A stretch of DNA of 47,856 nt from Thiomicrospira sp. (GCF_014859555.1 NZ_JACUTY010000010.1:1-47856), one strand, 5' to 3'; counted from the first letter of the stretch, positions 30,851 through 40,381 are shown. Program-made: numbers and translations. The notes: generated by a model not told the origin, from the sequence alone.

Positions 30851-32125
30851 ATGAGGATTAACCCGCGCACAACCCAGCCCATCGTTTACGGCTTGCCATC
30901 TTGGTCTTTGGCGATGCTGGGCATTCCGTTATATGTGTATTTGCCGACTTATTATTATGAGTTAGGTGTCGAGATGGCGCTGGTAGGTTTGATGTTGTTA
31001 TTGGCGCGGGTCACGGATGTGGTATCCGATCCGTTAATTGGTTGGTGGCGTGATCGTCTCAGCCATCGCGGGCGTTATGGCCTGATGACTTTGGGTTGGG
31101 GTTTGTTATTGGTGAGTTTGTGGCAATTGTTATTGCCCAATAATCCCAGCGCTTGGCATTTGTTGGTGTGGGCTTTGTTAGTTTATTTGGCTTGGACTTT
31201 GATTATGATTCCCTACCAAGCTTTATCTGCCGAAGTCACCCAAGAACACCATGAAAAAACCCGCTTTACCGCAAGCCGTGAAGCCTTTGCGATACTGGGG
31301 GTAGTCAGTGTCTTGTTGTTGCCTTTAGCCCTAAGTGATCCCAACGATACCCGCCTGTTGTTTAGTTGGTTGTATCCGATTGTTGCGATTAGTTTAACGC
31401 TGGGTTTGGCGCTAATGATGTGGCGACTTAATCTGGTGGCTTTGCCGGCTAGTGCTTCCGATTCAACATCAAACCAAAGTTGGCGCTTAAATTGGGCGCA
31501 AGCCAAGCAGGCCTGGTGGTTAATTAAATATGACTCCGCCAGTCGCCAACTTTGGCCAGCTTATTTTATTAATAGCCTGGCGAATGCGTTTCCGGCGACC
31601 TTGTTTTTATTGTTTGTGCAGCATTACCTGGATTTGACGCCGCAGACAGGTTTATTGCTGATGACGTTTTTTCTAGCCGGTGTCTTGGCCTTGCCGTTTT
31701 GGGTTAAGTTATCCAGCAAAATAGGCAAATACACCGCTTGGCGTGCTTCCATTTTATTGGCTTGTTTAAGTTTTGGCTGGGTGTTTACTTTGCAATCCGG
31801 CGATTTATATGGCTTTATGCTCATCAGCTTTTTATCCGGTTTAAGTTTGGGCGCCGATGTCGCCTTACCCGGTTCGATTCAGGCCGATATTGCACAAGAC
31901 TTAAGTCAAAACCAAGTGGCATTGAGTGGTTTACTGTTTGGCGTGTGGGGCATGTTAACCAAATTGGCGTTGGCCTTAGCCGTCGGTTTGGCTTTTCCGT
32001 TGCTCGATTGGATGGGCTGGGATGATAAAAGCGCCGCAAGTTTTACAACCCTAGTTTGGCTGTATGCTGGTGTACCGATCGCCCTAAAACTACTGGTGTT
32101 GGTTTGGTTGACAGGCGCGAAATAA
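30851..32125 (+). CDS. MFS transporter, GPH/MFS_2-like
   Basis: A 424-residue membrane protein with about 12 helices. The N-terminal L-L-A-R-V-T-D-V-V-S-D-P-L-I-G-W-W-R-D-R segment (about 46-65) is the D-x-x-x-D-P-x-x-G signature of the GPH/MFS_2 cation symporters. The substrate is unknown; a lipid-related cargo would be inferred only from the neighbours. It starts 6 bases after the NTF2-like gene and ends the plus-strand operon. The variant palindrome at 31507-31516 encodes KQAW. No terminator is obvious in the 138 bases that follow. Confidence 0.84.
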   Translation: MRINPRTTQPIVYGLPSWSLAMLGIPLYVYLPTYYYELGVEMALVGLMLLLARVTDVVSDPLIGWWRDRLSHRGRYGLMTLGWGLLLVSLWQLLLPNNPSAWHLLVWALLVYLAWTLIMIPYQALSAEVTQEHHEKTRFTASREAFAILGVVSVLLLPLALSDPNDTRLLFSWLYPIVAISLTLGLALMMWRLNLVALPASASDSTSNQSWRLNWAQAKQAWWLIKYDSASRQLWPAYFINSLANAFPATLFLLFVQHYLDLTPQTGLLLMTFFLAGVLALPFWVKLSSKIGKYTAWRASILLACLSFGWVFTLQSGDLYGFMLISFLSGLSLGADVALPGSIQADIAQDLSQNQVALSGLLFGVWGMLTKLALALAVGLAFPLLDWMGWDDKSAASFTTLVWLYAGVPIALKLLVLVWLTGAK

Positions 32126-32263
32126 AGAGTATTAAAAATAACAAAACTGGGCTTTAATAGCACCTTATAAAAGTAGGTTTTTGATGTTAGTCTGCGACCG
32201 CTAAAAATTCTTGCTTGGTAGAGCTAGATAGACATGCAAATATTTACATTTTTTGTAGTAGAT

Positions 32264-33817
32264 TTACATACTTAGTTTTTGGTTGCTATCCGGCAATCCT
32301 GTAGCCACATCCTTAAATGCAGCCAGTGCAGCTTCTAAATGGTCAATGATTTCTTGTTGAAGAATGTCGGGGGGGGGCAAGTTGTCAAGGTTATCCAAGC
32401 TATTATCTTTAAGCCAAAACACATCAAGACTGGCTTTATCACGGTTGATTAACTCATCATAACTATAATATTTAAAGCGTTCAGTTTCTTCGCGTTCGTG
32501 GCGATTTTTAGGGTGATAGCATTGAATGAAATCTTTAAGATCATGCAGCGTCATTGGACGTTGTTTTAACGTAAAGTGCTTATTGGTTCTTAAGTCGTAA
32601 AACCAAACTCCCTTGGTATGCACTTTTTCATCCCGTGGTGCATTATCAAAAAACACCACATTGGCTTTCACACCATTAGCATAAAAAATACCTGTCGGTA
32701 AACGCAAAATGGTATGTACATCGCAGTGAATCAACCACTTTCGGCGAATGCGCTCACCCGCACCACCTTCGAACAATACGTTATCAGGTAATACAACGGC
32801 GGCTTTACCAGTATCTTTTAAGCTCGCCACAATATGCTGCAAAAAGTTAAGCTGTTTATTGGTTGTAGTGGCCCAAAAATCTGAGCGCTTGTATGTCAAG
32901 ACATCCTTATCTTCGCCACCTTCAGCATTAGTAATGGTCATGCTACTTTTTTTACCGAACGGTGGGTTAGCTAATACATAATCTACTTTGTTGTCGCCCT
33001 TTATTGCTGTAAGCAAAGCATCCGCGCGCTCTATCTTTGGTTCACCATCAATACTGCCAATATTATGTAAAAACAAATTCATTAAACACATACGCCGGGT
33101 TGAGGGCACGATTTCATTACCAAAGAAGGTCTCATCCCGTAAAAAGTTCGCTTGGTTTTTATTGAGTTTGGTTTTGGCAATTGTGCTGGGGTCATGTTTA
33201 GACGGATTCCAGTGGTTCATGCCTTTCTCAATCCACCTCTCATCGCCATAAGTGATCCAGTCGCTGGCACTTAAAAAGAAGCCGCCTGTGCCACAAGCTG
33301 GATCCAGAATCGTTCTTTCTGCTTCAGGTCGAACACAAGCCAGCATGGCATCAATTAATGGGCGTGGCGTAAAGTACTGTCCTGCTCCACTTTTTGTGTC
33401 TTCAGCATTCTTTTGCAGCAAACCTTCGTATAAATCGCCTTTGGTATCGGCATCTAGGCTGATCCAGCTTTCTTCGTCGATCATTTTTATAATGCGTGAC
33501 AGTTTTGCTGGATCAGGGATTTTATTTTCCGACTTATAAAAAATAGCGCCCAGCATACCCGGGGCATCAGATAGTATATTCAATACATTACGGTACTGAT
33601 TTTCTAGCTCCATACCAGTTAAGTCAGTTAATGAATCCCAGTTGTAATCGTTAGGTACCTTGGTATCGCGTGAATAAGGGGGCTGTGAGTATTCGTAAGC
33701 CATTTTTAAAAACAATAAGTAGGTTAGCTGCTCCAAATAATCGCCATAGCCAACACCATCGTCACGTAAGGTGTGACAGTAATTCCAAACTTTCTGTACT
33801 AATGCAGGAGCGTTCAC
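32264..33817 (-). CDS. hsdM: Type I restriction-modification methyltransferase subunit HsdM
   Basis: N6-adenine methyltransferase subunit of a type I system, 517 residues. An N-terminal HsdM helical domain (about 1-135) precedes the SAM motif DPACGTGGFF (172-181) and the catalytic NPPF (284-287). The start is GTG, overlapping the previous stop (TAGTG), with GGAAG about 8 bases before. It is the last gene of the defence operon. Usual order is M-S-R; here S is first, M last, and hsdR is missing on both sides. Confidence 0.95.
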   Translation of the reverse strand: MNAPALVQKVWNYCHTLRDDGVGYGDYLEQLTYLLFLKMAYEYSQPPYSRDTKVPNDYNWDSLTDLTGMELENQYRNVLNILSDAPGMLGAIFYKSENKIPDPAKLSRIIKMIDEESWISLDADTKGDLYEGLLQKNAEDTKSGAGQYFTPRPLIDAMLACVRPEAERTILDPACGTGGFFLSASDWITYGDERWIEKGMNHWNPSKHDPSTIAKTKLNKNQANFLRDETFFGNEIVPSTRRMCLMNLFLHNIGSIDGEPKIERADALLTAIKGDNKVDYVLANPPFGKKSSMTITNAEGGEDKDVLTYKRSDFWATTTNKQLNFLQHIVASLKDTGKAAVVLPDNVLFEGGAGERIRRKWLIHCDVHTILRLPTGIFYANGVKANVVFFDNAPRDEKVHTKGVWFYDLRTNKHFTLKQRPMTLHDLKDFIQCYHPKNRHEREETERFKYYSYDELINRDKASLDVFWLKDNSLDNLDNLPPPDILQQEIIDHLEAALAAFKDVATGLPDSNQKLSM

Positions 33818-34884
33818 TAATGGTCTTCCAAATCCTGAGAGGTATTATTCAATAAAGGGCGCTGATTATACCTGTCTTGTGCTGTACGGATAGCCTGTTG
33901 TAGACGTTGATGCAAAATTTCTCTGTCGGGTAGCACGGCTAAGTATTCAGCGACATGTATACCGGCACTATCCATTTCTAAAAGTTCAACCTGCTCCTGA
34001 TTTTTCTCGGCGCACAAAATAATGCCAAGAGGCGCCTGCTCACCTTCTTGACGTTCGTACTTATCTAGCCAGCGAAGATAAAGCTCCATTTGGCTTTTGT
34101 AGTGATGTTTGAATTTTCCTAACTTTAAGTCAATGACCACTAAACGCTTGAGTTGACGATTGTAAAACAACAAGTCGATATAAAAGTCATCACCATCAAG
34201 CTGAATACGTTTTTGCCGTGCGATAAACGAGAATCCAGCGCCAAGCTCTAATAAAAACTGTTCTAGCTCGCGTAAAATAGCATCCTCTAAATCTTTTTCG
34301 AGATAATGGTCATTGAGCCCTAAAAAATCCAATACATAAGGGTCTTTTAGTAATAAGTTTGGAGTAACCTGCTGCTGCGCCAATTGCGCTAGTTCTAGCT
34401 TTATCGTTTCTTCAGGCTTTTTGGACAATGCTGTGCGCTCAAACAACATACTATTGATGCGCTCACTTAAGGTCCGTACGCTCCAAAATTCTGCGGCACA
34501 CATCTGTGCATAAAACTCACGGGCAAGCGGATCTTTTAAGCTAATGAGCTGCCTAAAGTGGCTCCAACTCAATTTTGCACACAGTGAGTGCAAAATTTGT
34601 TGATCTGGAAATTGTTCATTCAGTTGCATCATGTAGGCGATGTTTCTTGCACTCCATCCCTTACCAAACGCTTGAGTGAGTTGCTGAGCTAAATTGGCCA
34701 CAATCTGCTTACCATACTCTGCCCGCTCACCCTTGAGTAGTTCTTGGTTAATACGCTGACCAATTTGCCAATACATCATGGTTAGCGCGGCATTAACTGC
34801 CACCGCCGTTTGTTGCTTGGCTTGGGTGATTAATGTTTGAATTTCACCAAATAATTCAGTGTTAGTGACAATTTCTTTACTCAT
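33817..34884 (-). CDS. DUF1016/YhcG-type PD-(D/E)XK nuclease
   Basis: A 355-residue protein. The N-terminal helical domain (about 10-180) carries A-L-T-M-M-Y-W-Q-I-G-Q-R-I and Y-G-K-Q-I-V, as in DUF1016. The C-terminal nuclease-like domain has an Asp (FYIDLLFY, about residue 240) followed by I-D-L-K-L-G (about 258), the D...(D/E)xK triad. DUF1016 proteins are often embedded in type I loci, and the exact role is unsettled. It overlaps the HNH gene by 4 bases and hsdM by 3. It might supply cleavage where HsdR is absent (inference). Confidence 0.87.
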   Translation of the reverse strand: MSKEIVTNTELFGEIQTLITQAKQQTAVAVNAALTMMYWQIGQRINQELLKGERAEYGKQIVANLAQQLTQAFGKGWSARNIAYMMQLNEQFPDQQILHSLCAKLSWSHFRQLISLKDPLAREFYAQMCAAEFWSVRTLSERINSMLFERTALSKKPEETIKLELAQLAQQQVTPNLLLKDPYVLDFLGLNDHYLEKDLEDAILRELEQFLLELGAGFSFIARQKRIQLDGDDFYIDLLFYNRQLKRLVVIDLKLGKFKHHYKSQMELYLRWLDKYERQEGEQAPLGIILCAEKNQEQVELLEMDSAGIHVAEYLAVLPDREILHQRLQQAIRTAQDRYNQRPLLNNTSQDLEDH

Positions 34885-35756
34885 CCTACCGTCCTAATAA
34901 GTTCACCTATCCATGGATGCAGCGCATCCTTATCGCTATCTTGCTCAAGCTGATATACAAGAAAACCTAAATAAGTATTTTTATTATTAGGGTGAAACCA
35001 TTTCCCTATTTCTCGAAGCTTTTGTTCAAAGTAAGCATCGGCGCCTTGGTCTTGACGAAGTTTTTTTAAGTACCATTTTTTTGTTTCATTTATCAGTGGC
35101 TTAAAAAGTTTCCATTGAGCGATCCGGCCTTCATTTAATCTTTTTTGATCAAGGTGATACAGTCGAATAGAGAGTTTTACTTTAATATCTTCCGGCGACC
35201 CCTCTTCAAATCGAGAAAATGGCACACCTGATTTGTCATAAGAAAGTAACCGCCAATCCAATCTTTTACATGGATCGAGTAAGACAGGCACTTCATTGTC
35301 TTCATCTAACTCTTCATAGGCACGTTTTTGTTCATCGACCAAGGGAAAGTAATTCCATTTACCACCTGCTGTTCCTTGGAGGTCTTTTCTGTACTCATTG
35401 CAGTGTTGGCAGGAAAAACGAAAGTTTTCAGGTTTAAATGCTGTCCATTTATAACCAGAATGTTCAGGTTCAATGTCATATCGTGTTAAGGATTTGCCGT
35501 CAGCAGTTAATGCAACACCTTGAACCTTGCCTTTAGGCCGATAATGGTCGACAGCATTATCGGCTCTCGGGATATTCGTTTCGCAATACCAGCATCTCCC
35601 ATTTGATAGGGTTTCTAGGCTTTCTTTTAACTCTTTCCAAATGGCACTACGATCATCAGCAACAATGTTACCTGCTAATAACTCATTTTTAGCAGCCTCG
35701 GCTTTATCTTCCCAGTTGGCAGGTAAATTGATAAAAGTATTATCAACAAATCTCAT
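34881..35756 (-). CDS. HNH endonuclease, Septu PtuB-like
   Basis: A 291-residue HNH-type nuclease candidate. The Zn site is Cys55/Cys58 (CWYC) and Cys116/Cys119 (CQHC). The catalytic His lies in V-D-H-Y-R-P-K (His71). The Asn is in C-Q-H-C-N. The H-Y-R-P-K motif is typical of the PtuB/TIGR02646-type family paired with ABC-like ATPases. It overlaps the ATPase upstream by 4 bases (ATGA). With the ATPase it forms a probable Septu defence module. Function is inferred from family and pairing. Confidence 0.8.
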   Translation of the reverse strand: MRFVDNTFINLPANWEDKAEAAKNELLAGNIVADDRSAIWKELKESLETLSNGRCWYCETNIPRADNAVDHYRPKGKVQGVALTADGKSLTRYDIEPEHSGYKWTAFKPENFRFSCQHCNEYRKDLQGTAGGKWNYFPLVDEQKRAYEELDEDNEVPVLLDPCKRLDWRLLSYDKSGVPFSRFEEGSPEDIKVKLSIRLYHLDQKRLNEGRIAQWKLFKPLINETKKWYLKKLRQDQGADAYFEQKLREIGKWFHPNNKNTYLGFLVYQLEQDSDKDALHPWIGELIRTVG

Positions 35757-37510
35757 TGTTGATCCTCTTTCAGCAACTTAGCGATAACCTGCTTAGCAAT
35801 TTCATCTCGTTTTTCTTGCGATAAACTTAGTGCAAAGTTTACTAGTTGCTGGTAATCATCGGTTCCGGATTGTTCTTTCAAAAGTGAATTCCTGATTTTG
35901 ATATAACGCTCATAGTCATCATCGCGTTGAGACATGCTAAATCTATCATTATCCAACCATTCAGAAATGACCTGAAAACGAAGTGCTTCAAACTTGGTTT
36001 TGTTTTCGATGCTTGCAAGCGCTCGATATGTTTCAAGTCGTTTTTGAGTTCGCTTATCAAGGCTTGAGCCTAAACCAAACATATCACTGGTGATGATACC
36101 TGCGTACCCCATGCCTTGAGGGTCATGCTGCGGCTTATGTGATTCAATGGTGCGAGTATCATCGTCGCGGCTTAAGATTTGAACTTGATCTCGAGTTAAT
36201 TCAGCGATGGCGATTGGGTTGTGAGTGGTTAACACAATATGACTGTTATTTTCACCCTTAGAGCCAGAGGTGACAAACTTATTGAGATAGTCGATGTAAT
36301 CTACGCTCCACTTGGGGTTTAAGTGGGTGTCGGGCTCATCTAACAAGAATAGACTTTCTTCTTCAGCGGTAAATCTCAGTAGGCCTAACACAGTTAATAG
36401 CTGCTGCTCGCCTTCACTCAGTTCGCGAAAGGTCACACTACCATCGTTCTTTTTAAGCTTAACGCGAATACGCACTTCGCTGATTAACTCAGAAACATAA
36501 GTGCTTTCAAGGTCGCGGAAAAACTGTCTAGGCTCTTGGTCGCCAACTAACTCAGTGAGCTTATTAATGTCCTTGATGAACATATACAAGTATTCACGGC
36601 CTTTTTTATTCCATAAGGTTGCATCATCATCACGTCTAATTTTAATTGGCGCGGTAGCGACGTTATGCACACGATTTAAAAAATCGCGAACCACACCTTC
36701 AGCGCCCCAAAAAATATCAGGCTTATCTTGGCATGCTCCATAAGTACCTTTGGGAGCCTTACTCTTATTTAAATTCCATGAGGGCTCATTAAGTTCAAGC
36801 AATACCGAGTCGATACTTTCTGCATTTTCATCAGTTTCTAGGCCGAGCTGGGTATCTAAAAAATGCCTGACTAGATCGTCTTGGTTAAGCACAAAGGCTA
36901 ATAGCACAAATTGGCTGTGCACAGGCAGTGCATAAAACAAGCGTCTTAGCCCTGGGTCTTCCGACTTTGAGTTGCGTAGCTTTTTATCATATTGCTGAAG
37001 ATAAGGGCGAAAGACCGACTGCATGCGGTCACTATGGCCTGAATAGTAGCCAAATACATATTTAGGCAAAAACTCATCTTGGCGCTTTTTGAATTCATTA
37101 AATTTAAGTGACGCTAATACGGGTTTGTCTGACAAGACACTTAGTAAATCCACTTGCAAAGTGCTGCCCGAGTCTTTATTCTCACCTAAATCACGGTAGC
37201 TGACTAAATAAGTATTTTTATCGCGTTCAGGGTCGGCACTGATTTCTATTTCTTTGTTATGGCAAAAGTATCTTAGGGTATAGGAAAAAGAAGGTTTATC
37301 TTTTTCATTCCTATCGTTTTTACCCATAATTAAATCACGAAAAAGTACAGCCAAGGCCTCAAGTACGTTAGATTTACCCGTGCCGTTCCAGCCAATGACA
37401 AGAGTGATCCATTCTTGCTCTTCAAAGTCGATGGTGACATTTTTTAGGTTTTTAAAACGCTGGCACTCGCCTTCGCGATCTGATCCGATAGTAAATGAAG
37501 CTAGGCGCAT
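35753..37510 (-). CDS. ABC-like ATPase, Septu PtuA-like
   Basis: A 585-residue ATPase related to the OLD/RecF/SMC-like AAA_15 group. Walker A is GWNGTGKS (40-47), the signature L-S-E-G-E-Q-Q near residue 360, Walker B F-L-L-D-E-P-D-T-H-L-N-P near 390, and the H-loop L-T-T-H-N-P near 425. Both ends lack membrane segments. No TOPRIM nuclease domain is seen, so it is not OLD-like; the HNH partner next door supports a PtuA-like assignment. The start shares one base with the hsdS stop (TAATG). Confidence 0.83.
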   Translation of the reverse strand: MRLASFTIGSDREGECQRFKNLKNVTIDFEEQEWITLVIGWNGTGKSNVLEALAVLFRDLIMGKNDRNEKDKPSFSYTLRYFCHNKEIEISADPERDKNTYLVSYRDLGENKDSGSTLQVDLLSVLSDKPVLASLKFNEFKKRQDEFLPKYVFGYYSGHSDRMQSVFRPYLQQYDKKLRNSKSEDPGLRRLFYALPVHSQFVLLAFVLNQDDLVRHFLDTQLGLETDENAESIDSVLLELNEPSWNLNKSKAPKGTYGACQDKPDIFWGAEGVVRDFLNRVHNVATAPIKIRRDDDATLWNKKGREYLYMFIKDINKLTELVGDQEPRQFFRDLESTYVSELISEVRIRVKLKKNDGSVTFRELSEGEQQLLTVLGLLRFTAEEESLFLLDEPDTHLNPKWSVDYIDYLNKFVTSGSKGENNSHIVLTTHNPIAIAELTRDQVQILSRDDDTRTIESHKPQHDPQGMGYAGIITSDMFGLGSSLDKRTQKRLETYRALASIENKTKFEALRFQVISEWLDNDRFSMSQRDDDYERYIKIRNSLLKEQSGTDDYQQLVNFALSLSQEKRDEIAKQVIAKLLKEDQQ

Positions 37511-39309
37511 TAGTTTTCCTTAACGTCTTGCGTGGTCAATTTTAATTGGTCGAAGTGACCTAGACGATGAATTTGGATTTTGCCTGCTTTTTCTAATTTA
37601 CGCAGTTCGCTGTAAATTTCTTCGATACGATCGGTTGAGGTTTTATCCACAATGCCACATTTTTCAAAGGCATCTTGGGCATCAAGCCAGCCATCAGCTG
37701 CGGTTAACACTTCGAGTAAGGTATTCATCAGATTAACTTTTTTTTTAGGTCTACTAGGTTTACGGGGTTTAGGCATTTTGGCTAAGGCTTCACGCTCACG
37801 TTTGATTTTTTCGAGCAACACTGAAGCAGATTCGTCATTAGGGTGTTGCGGTACCAGTTGTCCTGAAAACGCCGACTTTAAGATATTTTTACGCTGGGCT
37901 TGGGAAGCTGTTAGAGCCGCGAGCGTATATTCCTCTTGTTTTGCTAGAAGAGTTAACTCTTCCTCAAGCAATTCTATTATTCGCTTTTGCTCTACTGCTG
38001 GAGCTAATGGCACAGGGAACTTTTGCAAAATTCCTTTGTTAATTGAGGCAAGATTCGTCGTTTGTTTACCTGCATTCTGAAACCATAATTTTCCAAATGT
38101 GTTTCCGTGATGTGAGATAAACTCGGGGACTAAATCAGTCACAAAAGCCCGCATACGAAATACATGATTTTGATGAATACAATTATCCACTTCGCCATAC
38201 CATACCCATCCACGACCTAACTTATCCCTGTCACCGCCTTCGTTAAACAAAATATCACCTGGCATTAACGTATATTTTTTTATATCAGATTCAGTGGCCA
38301 AAATAGTCTTGATCTCATCAAGATCCAAGAAGCCCCGCTGTACGTTAGCAACCCTAAGGTAAGGTACTTCACGCATTTTTATTTCAGCTTTTCTTTTTGT
38401 GCCTTTTGTTACACCCGAAACGATATCTCCCAACATATCTAAACTCGCCCATACCCAACCTTCTGGCAGTTCCGGTAAATCGGTAGTATCTGGTTGAACC
38501 GGTTCTGGGTATGCGTCTTGCCAGTTTTTAGGGTGTGTTTTGCCTTTTTCGGCAAACTCGGCAAGCTTTTGTTGCTGCCACTGCTCCCTACGCTGTTTTA
38601 AAATTCGCACTAACAGTTGTTCACCCGTTTCTTGCACTTTGGTGCGATTTTCCTCTCGCCATTGCTGGGTCAGTGAACCTTCAACGGCACTTTTTAACAG
38701 AGATTGACGATATTGGTTGAGTTTGATTTGTGCGGCTTGGAGTTCATTATCCCCAGCCTCAAGTTCAGAGAAAAGTTCTTCGAGTTTATCTACTATGCGG
38801 AGCTGTTCAGCTTTGGGAGGCAAATTAAATGGTAGGTTATTTAGAACGATTGGATCTATGTGTGGGATGCCAACGCCCTTTGTCTGCGCATTAAGTGTTT
38901 TGTAAATAGATTCAAAAAAATAGGCGAGGAGCTTAATATCGACTAAGTCTGATGTTACTTTAGCCAACGTTGAACCCACGTACCCACTAATTCCGCGTCC
39001 TGATAGCCCGGCTCTTGCTCCATCCCACACTAATAAAACATCTTTTTGAGTACAGCAAACGGCTTCTTGCTCTGGTGCATATTCAGTAATTATGCCTTTT
39101 TCAAAAGCTTTTATGTTGATGTATGGGATTGTTCTTAATTCTGACTTTTCACCTAAATCACGAGGCTTTTTACCTTTTTGAGTCTGAATGACTTCCGACA
39201 AAGGTAAAGTTAACCAATTTTTGGGAAGTTGAGCCGTTTCGATTTCACTCACGCAATATAATCCTGATTTATTTCGGTCGCGGGGCACCTGGTTCGTTGC
39301 TAATGGCAT
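37510..39309 (-). CDS. hsdS: Type I restriction-modification specificity subunit HsdS
   Basis: DNA-recognition subunit, 599 residues. Two target-recognition domains are seen (about 30-185 and 280-440), each followed by a helical spacer rich in K-A-E-Q-L-R-I-V-D-K-L and V-E-Q-K-R-I-I-E-L-L and ending L-L-K-S-A-V-E-G / I-L-K-S-A-F-S-G. It is longer than the usual 400-470 because of an added C-terminal tail (about 535-599) with D-G-W-L-D-A-Q-D-A-F-E-K-C, which may be a winged-helix-like extension. It opens the five-gene operon. Confidence 0.92.
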   Translation of the reverse strand: MPLATNQVPRDRNKSGLYCVSEIETAQLPKNWLTLPLSEVIQTQKGKKPRDLGEKSELRTIPYINIKAFEKGIITEYAPEQEAVCCTQKDVLLVWDGARAGLSGRGISGYVGSTLAKVTSDLVDIKLLAYFFESIYKTLNAQTKGVGIPHIDPIVLNNLPFNLPPKAEQLRIVDKLEELFSELEAGDNELQAAQIKLNQYRQSLLKSAVEGSLTQQWREENRTKVQETGEQLLVRILKQRREQWQQQKLAEFAEKGKTHPKNWQDAYPEPVQPDTTDLPELPEGWVWASLDMLGDIVSGVTKGTKRKAEIKMREVPYLRVANVQRGFLDLDEIKTILATESDIKKYTLMPGDILFNEGGDRDKLGRGWVWYGEVDNCIHQNHVFRMRAFVTDLVPEFISHHGNTFGKLWFQNAGKQTTNLASINKGILQKFPVPLAPAVEQKRIIELLEEELTLLAKQEEYTLAALTASQAQRKNILKSAFSGQLVPQHPNDESASVLLEKIKREREALAKMPKPRKPSRPKKKVNLMNTLLEVLTAADGWLDAQDAFEKCGIVDKTSTDRIEEIYSELRKLEKAGKIQIHRLGHFDQLKLTTQDVKEN

Positions 39310-39440
39310 TAGTAACCTTGTTTAAGCTAAACCTAAACGGTTTCAGGCTTTTTGTAAACCTCCTTGTCGAAAAAGAGATTGTAGACAAATCCATTAAGCT
39401 CGGCTTGATCAGCTAGCGGTAAAAGATTTTAGCTCTGAAC

Positions 39441-39477
39441 CTATTCTAATTAGCAATTTGAATAGGGGGACATTATA
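39441..39477 (-). promoter_or_regulatory. Candidate promoter and operator of the defence operon
   Basis: On the minus strand a perfect TATAAT (39472-39477) is followed by the inverted repeat CCTATTC - N12 - GAATAGG (39441-39466), which would cover the start of transcription. A good -35 was not found. A repressor of the hsd operon could bind here. Confidence 0.4.
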
Positions 39478-39571
39478 TCGGTGAGGTGCAGTTAGTTACT
39501 GGTTTTTTCCTTGTTATTTGTGGAGTTTACTATAGCTGTAGTCGCAAGAAACATGATTAACGAAGGGTTTT

Positions 39572-39591
39572 AACCACCAGGCCTGGTGGTT
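39572..39591. repeat. Iterated palindrome, 20-bp perfect copy
   Basis: AACCACCAGGCCTGGTGGTT, perfectly self-complementary over 20 bases, core 39577-39586, directly after the znuB stop. It sits between znuB and the hsdS promoter and could act as a hairpin at the end of the znuCB message. Confidence 0.92.
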
Positions 39592-39592
39592 G

Positions 39593-40381
39593 TTATTTTT
39601 TGGGTTTTAGGAGCAAGATAAGGAAGAGTGTCATAGCGCTCACGACAATGGCAGGGCCGGATGGTAAATCTAGATAGTAAGATAAGATTAAGCCGGTTGC
39701 GACACTAAAGCTGGCGGTGAAAAAGGTGTAACCCAACATTTGTTCGGGCGTATTGGCTAAACGGCGAGCGGTGGCGGCGGGTAAAATCAGCAGTGAGGTG
39801 ATGAGTAAAATGCCCACAATTTTCATGGCGACCGCAATCACCAATGCGAGCAATAGGGTCATTTGCAATTGTAGGGCTTTGACTTTTACACCTTCAACTT
39901 GCGCGAGTTCGGTGTTGAGGGTGAGGTTAAGCAGGTCGTGCCAGTTGCGGTAAAAAAACACAAATAACAGCACCCCCAAACCGAGCATCCAATATAGGTC
40001 CTCGCGATGCACACTCAGAATATCGCCAAATAAATACCCCATAATATCGAGCTGAATATTGCCTTGTAAACTAATCACCACCAAGCCTAGCGCTAGACTA
40101 CCGTGCGCCAGAATACCTAGTAAAGTATCGGTGGCTAACAAGGCACTTTGGCGCAGTTGATGCAGACTAATCACAATAATAAACGAGGTGATGAGAATCG
40201 CGAGGGTTAAATGGATTTGTAAAATCAGCCCCAAGCCGATCCCTAATAAAGCCGAGTGCGCGAGGGTTTCACCGAAGTAAGCTTGACGTTGCCAGACTAC
40301 AAATACGCCCAGCGGCGCGGCTAACCAAGCCGCCAACAACCCGGCGCTAAGCGCATAAAGCATAAAGGGGTCTAGCGTCAT
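39593..40381 (-). CDS. znuB: Zinc ABC transporter permease ZnuB
   Basis: Inner-membrane permease of the high-affinity Zn uptake system, 262 residues with about eight helices. The A-P-L-G-V-F-V-V-W-Q-R-Q-A-Y-F-G-E-T-L-A-H-S-A-L-L-G-I-G segment (about 22-49) is characteristic of the ABC-3 (ZnuB/MntB) family. It starts 5 bases after znuC, so the two are one operon. A Mn/Fe permease is possible by family alone, but the His-rich ZnuA next door favours Zn. Confidence 0.92.
   Translation of the reverse strand: MTLDPFMLYALSAGLLAAWLAAPLGVFVVWQRQAYFGETLAHSALLGIGLGLILQIHLTLAILITSFIIVISLHQLRQSALLATDTLLGILAHGSLALGLVVISLQGNIQLDIMGYLFGDILSVHREDLYWMLGLGVLLFVFFYRNWHDLLNLTLNTELAQVEGVKVKALQLQMTLLLALVIAVAMKIVGILLITSLLILPAATARRLANTPEQMLGYTFFTASFSVATGLILSYYLDLPSGPAIVVSAMTLFLILLLKPKK

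Follow-up and report, generated by a model that had tools for sequence, protein, structure and literature searches.

The window analyzed in this study is a stretch of 47,856 nucleotides from Thiomicrospira sp. (NZ_JACUTY010000010.1:1–47856), and all positions are counted from its first letter. Five genes were read on the minus strand in the 5′ to 3′ order hsdS, ptuA, ptuB, a DUF1016/YhcG nuclease gene, and hsdM, with adjacent ORFs overlapping by 1–4 nt. The genes were assigned to families by using Pfam, PADLOC, and NCBIfam. The hsdS gene (37510..39252) encoded a type I specificity subunit of 580 aa from a GTG start at 39252 (PF01420, 1.5e-20; PADLOC Specificity_I, 4.5e-114). It was followed by ptuA (35753..37510), encoding the ABC/SMC-type ATPase of Septu with 585 aa (PADLOC PtuA, 6e-204), and ptuB (34881..35756), encoding an HNH nuclease of 291 aa (PADLOC PtuB, 1.7e-94). 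The fourth gene (33817..34884), an optional member, encoded a PD-(D/E)XK nuclease of 355 aa (DUF1016_N PF17761, 3.4e-48; YhcG_C PF06250, 4.2e-49). The last gene, hsdM (32264..33817), encoded the N6-adenine methyltransferase subunit of 517 aa (N6_Mtase PF02384, 9.8e-67; HsdM_N PF12161, 8.9e-13). The five-gene order claimed in an earlier note on this DNA was therefore real: the ORFs were present and overlapping, and the families were confirmed.

The longest hsdS ORF started at an ATG at 39309 (39309–37510, minus strand). The GTG at 39252 is the more likely start, since most close relatives start at the aligned position and the resulting protein has 580 aa, as in relatives. HsdS consisted of two recognition domains followed by a conserved C-terminal domain. 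A C-terminal extension of about 90 aa with a winged-helix look (window 37510–37930, minus strand) was conserved among those HsdS proteins of the clade that are linked to PtuAB and is a possible docking surface. All five ORFs were intact with their catalytic motifs, including DPACGTG and NPPF in HsdM, Walker A (GWNGTGKSN) and Walker B (LLDEPDTHLNP) in PtuA, and DHYRPK in PtuB. In the DUF1016 protein, residues were conserved across the 6 sequences compared, and a sequence search against solved structures found no relative.

The PtuA profile matched solved PtuA chains (4.6e-13), and the best Foldseek matches were PtuA and retron-Septu proteins. The PtuB profile matched solved PtuB chains (2.3e-5), and the top 11 Foldseek matches were all PtuB; a single PtuB sequence gave nothing reliable against solved structures. 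TM-scores by query length were modest, at about 0.25–0.37 for PtuA and 0.36–0.48 for PtuB, with single-chain models of moderate confidence. The features of Septu, an ABC/SMC-class PtuA ATPase and an adjacent PtuB HNH nuclease, were found, and Walker A and the HNH [DE]H motif were conserved in all related loci, Walker B in all but one. The proteins were nevertheless diverged from solved PtuAB (about 10–17% identity in Foldseek alignments), PtuB was longer than the 215–266 aa or so of Septu PtuB, and the pair was linked to hsdS/hsdM wherever the locus could be read. An origin from retron I-A (Ec78/Ec83) was rejected: no reverse transcriptase was found among the ORFs read, the neighbors were hsd genes, znuB, and an MFS gene, and there was no Rfam match. 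PtuB scored 29 bits against the 150-bit cut-off of the NCBIfam retron Ec78 PtuB equivalog. The restriction system-associated AAA ATPase family TIGR04435 of NCBIfam was related to PtuA, with 156 bits, below the cut-off of 300 bits.

Compared with type I R-M systems, HsdM and HsdS were complete, but the HsdR translocase-nuclease was deleted and hsdS and hsdM were set apart by three genes. The earlier note had stated that no HsdR lies in or beside the operon. This statement held, and searches with the HSDR_N profile and the HsdR proteins of two relatives (L015 and L014) also gave no match in the assembly of the organism (2,115,224 bases, 146 contigs, completeness 100), so that no cognate hsdR was found elsewhere in the genome. 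The negative result is meaningful because a relative's HsdR query recovered full-length genes in three other genomes (G030, G428, and G429).

The operon of the closest relatives opened with an intact hsdR encoding 927–956 aa. These were Nitrincola tibetensis (L015), Shewanella sp. OPT22 (L016), and a member of the window's own family (G030/L014), with PtuA and HsdM 76–94% identical to those of the window. The protein lengths in the Nitrincola operon were 945 (R), 579 (S), 568 (A), 291 (B), 361 (DUF1016), and 512 (M). A scar of the hsdR 3′ end was found at 39249..39277 (minus strand) in the window. It consisted of 25 nt before the hsdS start (39253–39277) and a TGA stop overlapping the GTG start exactly as in L014, L015, L016, and L018. 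The 25 nt were identical to L015 at 20/25 positions; no other of the 95,662 25-mers in the window matched as well, the next reaching 17/25. The scar coded for EINQDYIA and a stop, compared with EMNQELIA and a stop in relatives, and this 8-residue stub ranked 1 of 2,941 stop-ending octamers. Judged from the intact hsdR in the same operon of the nearest relatives and from the scar, the window locus once carried hsdR, and its absence is a deletion. The view that the system is designed to lack HsdR was contradicted by these relatives of R-S-PtuA-PtuB-(DUF1016)-M order and by the scar.

Related loci were surveyed with PtuA alone as the query, and linkage to hsd genes was no selection criterion. The survey covered genome contigs, plasmids, IMG/VR, E. 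coli genomes, and genome sets sampled from the family (63), the class (369), two orders (395 and 391), and the phylum (249). Its counts refer to PtuA-bearing loci, and a loss of PtuAB with R kept is invisible to a PtuA-anchored survey. The clade was rare, with 2/369 in the class sample and 12/395 and 8/391 in the two orders. Of 36 related loci, 34 were readable 5′ of ptuA, and all 34 had hsdS immediately in front; ptuB came straight after ptuA in 36/36, hsdM was kept in all 31 scorable loci, and no locus surveyed had lost hsdM or hsdS. Two arrangements were observed: (R)-S-A-B-(D)-M, to which the window belongs, and (R)-M-(D)-S-A-B. About 1,500 genomes were searched, and none yielded a PtuAB pair of this clade standing alone; the PtuA query had no match in annotated phages. 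Relatives were found on six IMG/VR contigs.

DUF1016 was present in only 6/31 scorable loci, at two different positions, so it is an optional member and no core part. The order S-A-B-D-M without a full hsdR was found again in Pseudoalteromonas peptidolytica (L018), behind a 121-aa hsdR tail. The hsdR-less M-S-PtuA-PtuB loci included plasmids and one E. coli chromosome. The latter, in strain MB06233 from seawater (L044, 8799–14498), was complete and located in a genomic island near ygbA/flhA; the search of 5,426 E. coli genomes, at its given sensitivity, gave no other match. In one hsdR-positive locus (L071, 8288–9165), ptuB was split into two ORFs by a frameshift or sequencing error. Fic/Doc or Abi genes recurred beside or within four operons (L011, L081, L013, and L045).

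A full hsdR was found in 19 of the 31 loci with enough context. The 12 without an intact hsdR were the window, L018, L019, L009–L012, L025, L026, L044, L079, and L084. In the tree of the PtuA core, the two groups were intermixed, with 8 changes in the best tree and 6 forced by well-supported branches; the tree by itself makes no distinction between gain and loss of hsdR. At least 5 of the R-minus loci kept hsdR remnants in the canonical place: the 25-nt scar in the window, 121 aa in L018, 20 codons in L019, about 90 aa in L026, and broken pieces in L079. The L019 remnant was 60% identical with an E-value of 0.76, which is weak by itself, and was at the exact position. Matches at L011 were weak (E 0.25 or worse) and were left out of the count, and no remnant was found upstream of L009, L010, L012, L025, L044, and L084. 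If losses were proportional to the lengths of R, M, and S, the probability that six losses all fell on R would be about 0.01, a value that is only indicative since a locus that still has R cannot safely give up M. R would be harmful in the absence of M, and the bias of loss toward hsdR is thus partly expected. Since hsdR was lost several times in other bacteria with the remainder intact, the sequences suggest that the methylase alone can be enough for the inserted Septu module to work.

Within the near clade, the PtuA core (residues 1–482), HsdM, and HsdR were 62–94% identical between loci, and HsdS 37–56%. In some near-clade pairs, the PtuA C-terminus and PtuB fell together to 21–34%, while the core was still 82–94% identical. 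The exchanged segment (34881..36110, minus strand) comprised the C-terminal helical domain of PtuA, from about residue 470–482, and all of PtuB. Sliding identity over about 36110–34900 was 84–98% between the window and Nitrincola and mostly 38–64% between the window and L018/L014, with flanking ptuA at about 78–83%. Over 30 loci, the PtuA C-terminus correlated with PtuB (r 0.89, partial 0.80), and the PtuA core with HsdM (r 0.83, partial 0.41, Mantel p 0.0005); the correlation of the core with HsdR was 0.94 over 171 pairs. In the near clade, the PtuA core followed HsdM and HsdR more closely than PtuB. The exchange occurred in at least 3 clades (window/L015/L016 versus L014/L017/L018/L019; L009 versus L011; L022 versus L023/L078).

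The AlphaFold model of PtuA (mean pLDDT 70) had a low-confidence hinge at about 453–483 and a separate helical domain at 486–582, which would place the exchange point close to a domain boundary. From the joint drop in identity, the correlations, and this position, the PtuA C-terminus and PtuB appear to form an effector cassette, and the PtuA core appears to belong to the type I unit. The covariation fits a PtuA–PtuB complex, in which the C-terminal domain of PtuA may bind PtuB. Some of the pattern of co-inheritance and cassette exchange could come from linkage in one operon alone. The co-inheritance was not absolute: between L022 and L044, the PtuA core was 79% identical and HsdM 42%, so the core can also move to another HsdM. 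The recognition domains of HsdS were likewise exchanged as cassettes. The second recognition domain of the window (37900–38450) was nearly the same in L077 and the first differed, an instance of recognition-domain shuffling. The dN/dS values against Nitrincola, obtained by YN00 for near pairs only because distant pairs were saturated, were 0.05–0.07 for ptuA, 0.23–0.26 for ptuB, 0.04–0.11 for DUF1016, and 0.04–0.06 for hsdM.

The operon was flanked by znuB upstream and an MFS gene downstream. The znuB–MFS interval (window 32125–39593, compared with L139, L140, L141, and L142) was a variable insertion site in the genus. A sister genome (G001) with a 97% identical znuB had two unrelated genes there, two congeners (G008 and G006) had CRISPR-Cas genes and a long repeat array, and a third (G003) had another gene. 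No sigma-70-like promoter match was found between znuB and hsdS (window 39278–39590), so expression of the operon may be poor in this organism. The native promoter may have gone together with hsdR.

Several known systems resemble this locus in part. PrrC in the EcoprrI hsd locus also nests an ABC-type ATPase and a toxic nuclease function in a type I locus; its linked type I enzyme keeps it silent, and phage Stp sets it free (PMC2610378). PrrC combines ATPase and tRNase domain in one protein, whereas the ATPase and the nuclease here are two proteins; their linkage to the hsd genes and co-inheritance with them are read from sequence, and guarding by M-S is putative. TgvAB and DarTG2 are two-gene defenses inserted in type I operons (PMC11411939; PMC12255303), but their effectors are unrelated to PtuAB and their loci retain hsdR. 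TgvAB in a V. cholerae type I locus acts without HsdR activity, and outside the cluster it works alone but 10–100-fold weaker, for which its authors give stoichiometry as the reason (PMC11411939). Septu embedded in Hma systems has also been cited. Published PtuAB systems attack DNA or tRNA and stay inactive until a phage cue arrives. The pair of retron-Eco7 degrades tRNA-Tyr, and E. coli Septu is reported to attack nicked DNA (PMC11555353). The Ec83 PtuAB is released on msDNA degradation (PMC12948488), and for Septu, phage SSB is listed as the cue that it detects (PMC12904381). MADS shares a methylase, an S subunit, and an AAA ATPase without HsdR. Membership in MADS was rejected, with scores of 105 bits for MAD2 (cut-off 720), 31.7 for MAD3 (420), and 29 for MAD5 (400), and with no other MAD genes seen.

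The ATPase–HNH pair is no chance neighbor of the type I genes, given the contiguity of hsdS, ptuA, and ptuB in 34/34 loci, the presence of hsdM wherever it could be scored, and the recurrence of hsdR-less versions that are otherwise intact. On the same grounds, a hybrid system, as the earlier note had proposed, is the better reading. The locus is best explained, with a probability of about 0.5, as a composite of type I R-M and Septu in which PtuAB is coupled to the HsdMS complex and HsdR is a dispensable parallel output. PtuAB is probably a PrrC-like guard of the M-S complex or an alternative effector; we infer both this coupling and its trigger. The type I operon would carry a built-in Septu effector of PtuA and PtuB, with DUF1016 as an option and hsdR deleted. 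HsdM2S would methylate the host sites, the PtuA core would dock on or monitor the M-S (R) complex or its DNA, and the PtuA C-terminal domain would carry PtuB. Anti-restriction proteins of a phage, or unmodified or damaged phage DNA, would disturb the HsdMS complex. PtuA would then release or activate PtuB, which would cut DNA or tRNA and stop the phage. HsdR could be lost as a parallel output, while M-S and PtuAB would not be lost from each other. By analogy, the published cues of PtuAB, the silencing of PrrC, and the weaker action of TgvAB outside its cluster would favor such coupling. The gene order, motifs, scar, hsdR-positive relatives, recurrent hsdR loss, co-inheritance, and cassette exchange were read from sequence. 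Against coupling, the persistence of M and S after loss of R has other possible reasons, and orphan methylases are common. The ability of TgvAB to act alone, if more weakly, the possible contribution of operon linkage to the co-inheritance, and the possibly poor expression of the window operon also count against it.

It can also be suggested, tentatively, that PtuA is a stable subunit of the methylase complex. Here M2S would recognize the target sequence and mark self, the PtuA core would replace or complement HsdR as motor or sensor, and the PtuA C-terminus with PtuB would be the swappable nuclease. It seems somewhat doubtful that PtuAB is an autonomous Septu system sitting in a safe type I seat, with M-S an orphan methylase after hsdR loss and the two independent of each other. 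Such independent systems are documented in type I operons for TgvAB (PMC11411939) and DarTG2 (PMC12255303), as well as for Septu in Hma, and known PtuAB functions without M-S. A passenger of this kind is at odds with the invariant position behind hsdS, the retention of hsdM, the lack of a standalone pair of this clade in the roughly 1,500 genomes searched, and a PtuA core that, in the near clade, follows HsdM and HsdR more than its own nuclease.

The proposal that HsdMS marks self while PtuAB or DUF1016 takes over from HsdR the direct restriction of unmethylated DNA, in the manner of MADS, BREX, or DISARM, is improbable. HsdR-less M-S-PtuA-PtuB loci do recur, on plasmids and the E. coli chromosome among others, and M, S, and the ATPase have weak similarity to MAD2, MAD5, and MAD3. 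Most relatives still possess HsdR for that job, however, and PtuA had no match to HsdR-like helicase or translocase families. The known triggers of PtuAB are not methylation status (PMC12904381; PMC12948488), and the MADS scores were far below the equivalog cut-offs. Least probable of all is a decaying relic, little expressed since deletion of hsdR and probably its native promoter, and with the other genes not yet degraded. The scar and the missing promoter match fit such decay, but five intact ORFs with catalytic motifs and the low dN/dS do not, although the comparator of the latter (L015) still has hsdR. Loci without hsdR and with intact S, A, B, and M on several independent branches also argue against it.

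Defenses embedded in type I operons, Septu in Hma, and the restriction-associated ATPase family TIGR04435 are already known. No description was found, in open-licence papers excluding preprints, of a PtuAB clade that is locked to hsdS/hsdM, has lost hsdR repeatedly, and exchanges the PtuA C-terminus and PtuB as a cassette. Effectors nested in type I loci are usually taken as passengers, whereas the nested ATPase here is inherited with the methylase, the nuclease is swapped as a module, and it is the classical cutting subunit that disappears. If PtuA is a subunit of the methylase complex, M-S-PtuAB would be a composite class in which recognition and effector cassettes are exchanged and HsdR is optional. 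If PtuAB is read out through HsdMS, this would be a new sensor for Septu, and the trigger of PtuAB would be directly testable, for example with the anti-restriction proteins Ocr or Stp. The locus is also a warning that orphan HsdMS pairs may be part of a working defense system.
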